From Synechococcus sp. SB0662_bin_14 (GTDB taxonomy: Bacteria > Cyanobacteriota > Cyanobacteriia > PCC-6307 > Cyanobiaceae), in the NCBI GenBank assembly GCA_009840445.1, contig VXNS01000014.1:1-37597 (forward strand): 37,597 nucleotides of DNA, given 5' to 3'. Of the stretch, positions 1,472 to 5,395 are shown in pieces (within the stretch, counting starts at the first letter, position 1; the number at the start of each line of letters is the position of its first letter). Below the pieces are notes generated by a model. That model made no database searches and had not been told where the DNA came from. It was given only the letters and a program-made list of their open reading frames with translations. Position numbers and translations under genes: made by a program.

Positions 1472-1565
1472 GGTGGCACCGGCGCTGGTGGGGTCATTCT
1501 CCCCTGGCCGGCTCCCCGCTGCGCATCCATGCCCGGAGGCGCGCCAAAATACCGGGGGAGGCATG

Positions 1566-2489
1566 ATGATCATGGCAGGGACAGACCAGACCGGTGGCGC
1601 GGCGTTCTCCGCCGAAGACAACGACGCGCTGCTGGCTGCGGTGAGCGCCCAGTTGGCGGCAGGGGCCTTCCCTGGCCAGGACGAGGCGGTCCTGGCCCGG
1701 CTGGTGGAGGGTTTGGGGGATCGGCGGGGCCTGGTGCGGTTCGGCTTTGCCGAGCGACTGGCCGCCATTGGCCTGCCTGCCGCCCCCTTTTTGCGCCGTG
1801 CTCTGCGTCAACACGAGAACATGGCCGTGCGGCGGGCCGCCGCCAAAACCTTCACCCTGATCAAGGACCCACAGTCCATGGTCACCTTGGGGGAGGCCTT
1901 GACAGAGGACCCGGATCCGGTGGTGCAGGGATCGGCTGCCGGCGCTTTGGCCGAGCTGGGTGGAGTGGCCGTGCCCCCGCTGCTGGCCATCCTGGAGGAT
2001 CCTCGCCATAGCGCGTTTTGCAAAGGCCTGGCGGCCTGGGCCCTTGCCAGCATCGGGGCAAGAGGGGCCGAGAAGCTGCGGCCCGCCATGGAGTCACCCC
2101 TGGCGGACGTGCGGGCCGCCGTGGTGGGCGCCCTGGGGGATCAAATTCAAAACAGTGACGATCAAGAGGCTCTCACCCTGCTGCACCAAGCCCTGGAAGA
2201 TCCCTCGGAAGAGGTGCAGGCGGAGGCTGTCACCGCCTTTGGCAAGCTGCAACATCCCCGCTTTATTCCCGTATTGGCAGCCAGCTTGGAGAGCCCGTCC
2301 CTGGAGGTGCGCAAGAACGGCGCCCTGGCCCTGATGAAGTGCCGCAACGAAGCTGGCTTGCCCCCCTTGGAGACGGCCCGGCAGCGGGAAGGGGACGGTC
2401 CCTTGGCCACCGTGTTGCAGTTGGCCGTCACCCAGCTTCGCCGCAGCCTGGAGACGGGCTGCGAAGACGCATTCAGGCCCGGGTCTTAG
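1566..2489 (+). CDS. cpeF: CpeF-like bilin lyase, HEAT-repeat
   Basis: Second HEAT-repeat bilin lyase homologue, about 307 residues. Repeats such as AVRRAAAKTFTLIKDP, VVQGSAAGALAELG and EVRKNGALALMKC resemble CpeF (formerly MpeV), which in Fremyella attaches the doubly linked bilin to Cys50/61 of CpeB. In-frame ATGs lie at 1563, 1566 and 1572. The purine-rich GGGGGAG at 1554-1560 is best spaced for 1566 or 1572. It is divergent from cpeY, and its last 17 bases overlap the 3' end of cpeZ tail to tail. Its substrate is inferred from family resemblance and context; another E/F lyase or a bilin-lyase isomerase relative is possible. Confidence 0.68.
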   Translation: MIMAGTDQTGGAAFSAEDNDALLAAVSAQLAAGAFPGQDEAVLARLVEGLGDRRGLVRFGFAERLAAIGLPAAPFLRRALRQHENMAVRRAAAKTFTLIKDPQSMVTLGEALTEDPDPVVQGSAAGALAELGGVAVPPLLAILEDPRHSAFCKGLAAWALASIGARGAEKLRPAMESPLADVRAAVVGALGDQIQNSDDQEALTLLHQALEDPSEEVQAEAVTAFGKLQHPRFIPVLAASLESPSLEVRKNGALALMKCRNEAGLPPLETARQREGDGPLATVLQLAVTQLRRSLETGCEDAFRPGS

Positions 2490-3072
2490 CCAGGGAACAG
2501 CGGGCCAGGGCGGCCGTGGCGGATTCCCGCACGTAGGCGTCCACTGTCTCGTTGGCCGCCTGGGCTTCCAGATCCGCCTGGGCAGCCTCCAGACCCAGCC
2601 CCGCCAAGGCGTTGATGCAGGCCACCTGAACCGCCACGTCCCCTTCCCGCAAGATCTTCTGCAGCCGCGGCAGGGCGGGCTCACCCATCTCCCCCAGGGC
2701 CATCACGGCGGTGATCTGCACCACGGGATTGGGTTCAAGGGCCTTGCGGCACAGCAGATCCAGGGTGGCATCGGGGAACCGCAGCCCCGCCCACTGGTCC
2801 GCAACCTGGGCCAGGGCTTTACAACAGCTTGAGCCAACAGTGAGGTCGTCGGTGCCGGCCAGACGTTCCGTCAGGGGCTGCACCGCACGCTCCCCCACCG
2901 TGCCAAGGGCCTTCACTGCAGACCGGCGCAGGGGAACGTCCGGCTCGCTGAGCATGGCCATCAACCGGGGCACCACGGTGGGATCGTCACTGCGGGCCAG
3001 GGCCATCGTGGCCCGTGAGCGCATGTTGGGGTTGGGGTGGCGGAGTTGGTGGAAGAAGGGGTCCAAAGCCAT
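2473..3072 (-). CDS. cpeZ: CpeZ-like phycoerythrin bilin lyase chaperone
   Basis: A 199-residue protein made almost entirely of HEAT repeats (LRHPNPNMRSRATMALA, PLRRSAVKALGTVGE, VVQITAVMALGEMGEP). Size and repeats match CpeZ, which acts with CpeY as a chaperone-like partner and stabilises phycoerythrin subunits. It lies about 110 bases downstream of cpeA on the same strand, with an intrinsic-terminator-like hairpin between. It may therefore be transcribed at a lower level by readthrough, or have its own promoter. Its 3' end overlaps the convergent cpeF-like gene by 17 bases. Confidence 0.82.
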   Translation of the reverse strand: MALDPFFHQLRHPNPNMRSRATMALARSDDPTVVPRLMAMLSEPDVPLRRSAVKALGTVGERAVQPLTERLAGTDDLTVGSSCCKALAQVADQWAGLRFPDATLDLLCRKALEPNPVVQITAVMALGEMGEPALPRLQKILREGDVAVQVACINALAGLGLEAAQADLEAQAANETVDAYVRESATAALARCSLAKTRA

Positions 3073-3181: not shown

Positions 3182-4379
<1,198 letters not shown>

Positions 4380-4425
4380 TTAAGTCAAGGCACGGACCGG
4401 ATAAGCGGCCCGGCAGGGACTCGGC

Positions 4426-4487
4426 AAGGTTTCTTTACGGGATGGTCCATTTTCACCCCCCCCAGGGTGCAAGCTAAAGGAAACCTT
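4426..4487. promoter_or_regulatory. inverted repeat in the divergent cpeB / 4524 promoter region
   Basis: AAGGTTTCTTTA at 4426-4437 is mirrored by TAAAGGAAACCTT at 4475-4487, identical except for one extra base. Between them lies a smaller CACCC...GGGTG pair around a C tract. The block is about 110 bases upstream of cpeB and about 37 upstream of the gene at 4524. It could be a regulator binding site or a 5' leader structure. No clear -10/-35 pair was identified. Confidence 0.45.
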
Positions 4488-4523
4488 GAGGCCTGAACGC
4501 AGGCCTTCATCCTGTCCCCTGCC

Positions 4524-4748
4524 ATGACCCAACCGGATTCCGCCCCCTCCCGCCAGGACTTGGAGAGCACCCACAAAGAGTTGAGCGATTATCGGGATCG
4601 TCTGGCCGCAGACGTGCTCGCCATGGGTCGGAAGCTCAAGTTGCCCCGCCCCATGGTGGAGCAAAACATCGCCCAGCACGAGGAGCTCAACCGGTTGGAC
4701 GGTGTGCTGCGGCAGTTGGAGGCACAGATCCAGGCCATGGCTGACTAG
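4524..4748 (+). CDS. small conserved-type hypothetical protein, coiled-coil
   Basis: A 74-residue acidic, helix-rich protein with charged heptad-like stretches (DLESTHKELSDYRDRLAAD, NIAQHEELNRLDGVLRQLEAQ). No catalytic motif, signal peptide or membrane segment is visible. It is transcribed divergently from cpeB and ends 26 bases before the phycobilisome-like gene at 4775, suggesting a two-gene unit. Its place in the phycoerythrin region hints at a role in phycobilisome assembly or regulation, but that is context only. I do not recognise a named family. Confidence 0.68.
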   Translation: MTQPDSAPSRQDLESTHKELSDYRDRLAADVLAMGRKLKLPRPMVEQNIAQHEELNRLDGVLRQLEAQIQAMAD

Positions 4749-4774: not shown

Positions 4775-5395
4775 ATGAACAACGCCAACTCCGCACCCCA
4801 GGCTTCTCTCTCAGCCCGCGCTCTGGCCCTCATCCCCAAGGCCAGAATCCTTGGGCTGCCCGGAGATCCGCGCTTGAGCCCGGCCCAGCGGACCATCTTT
4901 GCCGAGGCCGACGAGCTGCGCCGCCAACTCCGCCCGGAGGAGCTGGACCATCTCAGTGGCAATCCCCGCAGCGCCGCCAGGCTGGTGGGCATCCTGCAAC
5001 CCGAAGCGGAAGCACTGGTGGCCCGGGCCCGCAGTCAACTGCTGGAGGAAAAGCCCGAACTGATCCAACCCGGCGGGGGGCTGTACCCCCCCTTCCGGGC
5101 GGCCGCCTGCTGGCGTGATCTCTGGCAGTTTCTCCGCTGCGTGCTGTACGGCGCCGCTTCCGGCATTGTTGATTTCACCTCTCCAAGGGGGGTCCAGGCC
5201 ATGGAGTTGCTCTATCAGGAGTTGCACGTGCCCCTGGGGGCCATGGTGCGCGGCCTGGAGTTGCTCAAGCAGGACACCTTCACACTTTGCCCCATCCACC
5301 AGCCAACGGGTGAAACGGTGGTGGCCTGCTTTGATCACCTCATCGGCAGCCTGCGGGGTTTCCAGGCCAACCAGCAGCAGGGACACCCCGTCTGA
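4775..5395 (+). CDS. divergent phycobiliprotein-like (phycobilisome family) protein
   Basis: A 206-residue protein whose second half aligns by eye with phycobiliprotein subunits. GGGLYPPFRAAACWRD (about 100-115) matches the CpeB stretch around [16 protein letters not shown]. It keeps the Cys112-x-Arg-Asp115 arrangement of the central bilin site. This is followed by a CVLYGAAS segment and ELHVPLGAMVRGLELLK, equivalent to the ALGVPL helix of CpeB. The first 90 residues do not look like a standard phycobilisome helix pair. It may bind a bilin, chaperone subunits, or act in phycobilisome turnover. It sits behind the small gene at 4524 and converges on pgk. Fold assignment is fairly firm; function is unknown. 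Confidence 0.75.
   Translation: MNNANSAPQASLSARALALIPKARILGLPGDPRLSPAQRTIFAEADELRRQLRPEELDHLSGNPRSAARLVGILQPEAEALVARARSQLLEEKPELIQPGGGLYPPFRAAACWRDLWQFLRCVLYGAASGIVDFTSPRGVQAMELLYQELHVPLGAMVRGLELLKQDTFTLCPIHQPTGETVVACFDHLIGSLRGFQANQQQGHPV

Follow-up and report, generated by a model that had tools for sequence, protein, structure and literature searches.

In Synechococcus sp. SB0662_bin_14, the phycoerythrin genes lie close to an open reading frame for a divergent protein with a bilin-site motif, which raises the question of what this protein is and what it does beside them. The window, i.e., the whole stretch of 37,597 nucleotides that was analyzed (contig VXNS01000014.1), belongs to a Candidatus Synechococcus spongiarum-type cyanobacterium, a sponge symbiont. 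The reading frame at positions 4775-5395 on the forward strand encodes 206 amino acids, and the exact coordinates of an earlier note, made from the DNA letters alone, were reproduced. That note described a phycobiliprotein-like protein, and this description holds far beyond chance. In a Pfam search, residues 41-193 (positions 4895-5353) match PF00502 with an E-value of 5.2e-32 (111.4 bits against a gathering score of 22.2), which rules out a chance resemblance to phycobiliproteins. In addition, a PDB search with the threshold E <= 10 matched 156 distinct sequences; among the 60 listed, those with the best E-values, down to 2.2e-18, are allophycocyanin-core chains. The best NCBIfam matches are ApcA (NF058521, 1.2e-17) and then ApcB (TIGR01337, 1.7e-16), but no equivalog cut-off is reached and all scores are far below. 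The gene is under purifying selection, as the dN/dS is 0.13-0.20 in comparison with eight orthologues; together with the intact reading frame, this rules out a pseudogene. Carriage by a virus was rejected as well, as none of the 12 pattern matches in a viral scan is a relative. Besides this gene, the genome has 10 phycobiliprotein genes, and a long frame present in two pieces was taken as ApcE; the gene in the window is therefore an extra, non-canonical one.

The protein is very probably an orthologue of AplA, the allophycocyanin-like phycobiliprotein. To our knowledge, no function has been assigned to AplA, a little-studied protein, since its description in 2004. The study of that year reportedly named the protein and described an N-terminal extension of 28 residues; the AplA of Fremyella diplosiphon is said to carry a covalent chromophore and not to have been detected in phycobilisomes. 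As in the AplA of Fremyella diplosiphon and marine Synechococcus, the protein of the window has allophycocyanin as its closest match in pairwise searches, carries an N-terminal extension and has kept its bilin site intact. A single-sequence search of 400 genomes at E <= 1e-25 gave a family match in 79 of them, and neighborhoods were inspected for 15 of these 79 matches. A further 20 neighborhoods come from the 33 matches that a 12-sequence profile gave outside the window's family. In a tree of 39 Apl sequences (the window, three symbiont relatives, one near relative, 14 free-living relatives and 20 distant cyanobacteria) and 28 canonical subunits, built without ApcE domains and with midpoint rooting only, all Apl proteins group in one deep clade (100/100), separate from the alpha and beta subunits. 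This separate clade, together with the NCBIfam scores, also rules out a stray CpeB paralogue, and the proposal that the protein is not a rod or core subunit is supported by its position outside both clades and by the equivalog cut-offs, none of which it passes. The sequence family and the Cys-x-Arg-Asp site are shared with ApcA and ApcB; unlike these subunits, the protein scores only 64 bits for ApcA, where the cut-off is 270, and 61 bits for ApcB, where it is 228, lies outside both clades and has an extra N-terminus and the residues Trp113 and Trp117. Similarly, CpeB is a gene neighbor with an aligned central bilin site, but the score for CpeB is only 39 bits, well short of the cut-off of 275, the clade is different, and the column of Cys50 of CpeB is occupied by Ala80, so no Cys is present there.

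The gene order supports the same identification. All 14 of the 14 loci from free-living relatives show the same surroundings: an unk4-type gene (unnamed there, 142-203 amino acids) adjoins aplA upstream, and the pentapeptide-repeat gene unk5 follows downstream, separated from aplA by a CpcG-type linker gene in nine of these loci. This corresponds to the order given for marine Synechococcus in the available text of PMC2246261, in which unk4 lies upstream of aplA, aplA lies upstream of cpcGII, and unk5 encodes pentapeptide repeats. Orthology to the aplA of marine Synechococcus thus follows from synteny with the gene names in that text, and not from a direct comparison with a named AplA sequence. 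According to the same text, aplA was mapped in marine Synechococcus in 2007, is present in all PEII-containing marine Synechococcus and has a product that is counted among a new class of photosensors with unknown function; the name also occurs in the cluster descriptions of PMC6363710, PMC5478717 and PMC6776005, as far as their available text goes. The aplA of the window differs from the marine arrangement, as it lies outside unk4-aplA-cpcGII-unk5, follows a 74-amino-acid gene, is divergent from cpeBA and, unlike the published aplA, adjoins a pgk-like gene (recognized by eye). No unk4 was found in four genomes tested, in a search that had no positive control. As a finding on the window alone, this is ordinary: the earlier note rightly sensed a bilin-site protein outside the rods and core with a link to phycoerythrin, and what it missed was membership of the named family AplA.

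The central bilin site is conserved within the family. Residues 100-115 read GGGLYPPFRAAACWRD, and a similar stretch is found in CpeB (positions 3741-4316, reverse strand). Upon alignment, Cys112, Arg114 and Asp115 fall in the same columns as Cys82, Arg84 and Asp85 of CpeB, as had been proposed from the letters alone. The motif Cys112-Trp113-Arg114-Asp115 (positions 5108-5119, forward strand) is retained throughout the 39 Apl sequences: Cys, Trp and Asp in all of them and Arg in 38, with Ser in L073 as the exception. Variation of Cys112 among homologs had been named beforehand as evidence against a bilin-site reading, and this objection falls away, since none of the 39 family members lacks the Cys; in a separate alignment, it is kept in 30 of 30 orthologues. 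Arg108, Arg121 and Tyr125 are likewise found in 39/39 sequences and Asp46 in 36/39. We take Asp46, Arg121 and Tyr125 to be alpha-beta dimer contact positions, and the 2004 study reportedly described substitutions at such positions in AplA. Within the aligned set, Trp113 (39/39) and Trp117 (36/39) distinguish Apl from the canonical subunits. On an ideal helix, both are located on the Arg121 side, away from the Cys112 side, which suggests that they contact a partner or the N-terminal extension.

The earlier note had found no clear counterpart for the whole N-terminal half, which proved too broad, as the Pfam match already begins at residue 41; the part that lacks a counterpart is limited to residues 1-33 (positions 4775-4873, forward strand). 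This extension is absent from canonical subunits and kept in Apl, with Leu19 conserved in 38 of 39 sequences and Ala23 in 36 of 39. The conserved Asp46 is preceded by 45 residues in the protein of the window versus 11-13 in the 28 canonical subunits, and by at least 34 in all 39 Apl sequences, some of which have uncertain start codons. Two AlphaFold models made from shallow alignments have low confidence (mean pLDDT of 53.8 and 53.5), and the helix order is compatible with a phycobiliprotein. With the first model (53.8), the 50 Foldseek matches listed are phycobiliproteins or derivatives (best E-value of 1.8e-5), and phycobiliproteins and derivatives are on top in VIA, with Z-scores of 11.7-13.9 among the matches listed; both agreements are partly circular, since CpeA and CpeB were part of the alignment of the model.

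The genes around aplA in the window point to phycoerythrin. On the reverse strand, cpeB (phycoerythrin beta; positions 3741-4316; NF058508, 320.5 bits against a cut-off of 275) and cpeA (phycoerythrin alpha; 3182-3676; NF058506, 289.8 bits against 225) are accompanied by a HEAT-repeat bilin-lyase-like gene (2473-3072; PF13646/PF03130), which shares 44% identity with the HEAT gene adjoining CpeY in L129 and which we take to be CpeZ-type. A CpeY-like HEAT lyase is also encoded on this strand (146-1768), with 42% identity to the CpeY of L129, which itself passes NF058505; the true start of this gene probably lies inside the reading frame. The gene had been described as divergent from cpeBA, and the opposite strands are indeed observed, but the two are not direct neighbors, as a same-strand reading frame for a conserved small protein of 74 amino acids, c50 (positions 4524-4748), intervenes. 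It ends 26 bp upstream of aplA, and with this gap, the two genes are probably co-transcribed. The cpeB and c50-aplA units diverge from a 207-bp stretch (positions 4317-4523), which is presumed to be the promoter region. No Pfam or NCBIfam family scores above cut-off for c50. Relatives of c50 are present in eight of 12 cyanobacterial genomes tested; they are located between cpeB and pebB in three genomes (G061, G034 and G045) and beside or near aplA in two distant loci (L135 and L136). Identity of c50 with unk4 was considered and rejected, as the family lengths differ and no common conserved block appears on alignment. The pebB gene of this organism is not at the aplA locus but elsewhere in the genome (G000:C6).

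The same association is observed in distant cyanobacteria. In 14 of the 20 distant loci, a phycoerythrin, bilin-synthesis or chromophorylation gene is present in the fetched stretch, with cpeBA, pebAB, CpeS, CpeT, CpeY/Z, linkers and unk5 as the gene kinds counted. Two further loci have a HEAT gene only (L130 and L133), and in four (L138, L139, L142 and L143) no phycoerythrin or bilin gene was found near aplA, although L139 has a doubtful PebB-like piece of 110 amino acids. Both pebA and pebB (NF009720 and NF009723) are inside the fetched stretch in 10/20 loci. In L125, L126 and L134, pebA, pebB and aplA follow each other directly on one strand in an operon-like arrangement, divergent from cpeBA, and in L134, pebB and aplA overlap by four bases. 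In the window, this place is taken by c50-aplA, which suggests that aplA sits there at the position of the phycoerythrobilin operon.

Across the phylum, aplA and phycoerythrin occur together. With a profile of 26 Apl sequences, Apl was detected in 53 of 386 genomes at 182 bits or more, and the same 53 were found with a 12-sequence profile; the next match, at 118 bits, is without the N-terminal extension. CpeB is above cut-off in 61 of these 386 genomes, and PebB (E <= 1e-55) is found in the same 61. Apl and phycoerythrin occur together in 48 genomes, Apl only in five, phycoerythrin only in 13 and neither in 320. In other words, phycoerythrin and phycoerythrobilin-synthesis genes are present in 48/53 genomes with aplA versus 13/333 without (Fisher p = 3e-43, with the relatedness of genomes ignored). 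Ten of the 13 phycoerythrin-only genomes come from the window's family and were taken to be Prochlorococcus-like because of their small size; the others (G081, G490 and G663) indicate that phycoerythrin can be made without AplA. Among the genomes listed for seven genera with both phycoerythrin-plus and phycoerythrin-minus members, aplA tracks phycoerythrin except in G081. Neither CpeB nor PebB was found in five of the 53 Apl genomes, four of one genus, g87 (G613, G615, G628 and G672), and G435; phycoerythrobilin thus cannot be the sole ligand. The proposed phycoerythrin connection is therefore backed by both co-occurrence and co-location. As far as open-access literature searches reach, the phylum-wide link of aplA with phycoerythrin and pebAB is new; it was partly known, as aplA in PEII-containing marine Synechococcus is already reported in the available text of PMC2246261.

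These results make it fairly probable that AplA is a bilin-loaded, non-antenna protein that serves phycoerythrin production by handling or sensing. AplA would then represent an old third phycobiliprotein lineage that has kept the central bilin site without being an antenna subunit. A lyase would attach a linear tetrapyrrole to Cys112, presumably phycoerythrobilin in organisms that make it, and Arg114 and Asp115 would hold the bilin there. The soluble, loaded protein would stay out of the rods and may act in bilin handling, or in bilin or light sensing, for phycoerythrin production. From sequence, the sensor, assembly chaperone and turnover factor suggested in the earlier note cannot be separated, and nothing in these data favors turnover. 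Tentatively, a more specific role can be proposed: a phycoerythrobilin carrier or gauge, loaded at Cys-Trp-Arg-Asp, that might couple bilin supply to phycoerythrin assembly across cyanobacteria, encoded in a pebA-pebB operon in some lineages, with the N-terminal extension and Trp113/Trp117 facing a binding partner.

AplA could also be a light-color photoreceptor that signals apart from phycoerythrin assembly, with the genomic link reflecting a need for color sensing. We consider this unlikely, even though the retained bilin site, the five aplA genomes without phycoerythrin and the placement of AplA in a new class of photosensors in the available text of PMC2246261 would fit it. No output domain is present in AplA beyond the conserved 33-residue N-terminal extension, and the placement of aplA with pebA and pebB fits bilin handling at least equally. 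That AplA serves as a minor structural subunit in special rods, for example on the CpcG2-type linker of marine strains, is improbable. The linker next to aplA in most free-living loci and the retained positions with a presumed contact role agree with such a subunit, but the AplA clade is apart from every antenna subunit tested, the two Trp residues and the N-terminal extension are absent from canonical subunits, the aplA of the window does not adjoin such a linker, and AplA reportedly escaped detection in phycobilisomes. Least probable is that AplA carries no chromophore and acts as a structural or turnover factor, with Cys-x-Arg-Asp left over as a relic of the fold. Bilin loading is not provable by sequence alone, which leaves room for this reading, but a relic would drift, whereas Cys112 and Asp115 are invariant among Apl proteins that diverge to 32-42% identity. 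As for turnover, no degradation gene was recognized in the neighborhoods, where only HEAT proteins match NblB, below cut-off. The link with phycoerythrin and phycoerythrobilin synthesis narrows the search for the function of AplA, as the bilin, the lyases to be expected and the phenotype to look for can be predicted from it, and the phycoerythrin-free genomes that keep aplA (G435, G613, G615, G628 and G672) are natural controls for the question of the ligand.

Several other genes were observed around these loci. In six distant loci (L127, L130, L131, L133, L140 and L141), the closest divergent gene upstream of aplA encodes a HEAT-repeat protein of about 220 amino acids; in L136, this gene lies one gene away from aplA. 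In L137, L143 and L144, aplA is followed immediately by a DUF2656 (PF10847) type gene in the same orientation. In the window, a HEAT-repeat, NblB-like reading frame (positions 1503-2489, forward strand; 48.5 bits against a cut-off of 300) lies between the CpeY-like and CpeZ-like genes on the opposite strand and may encode a further bilin lyase.
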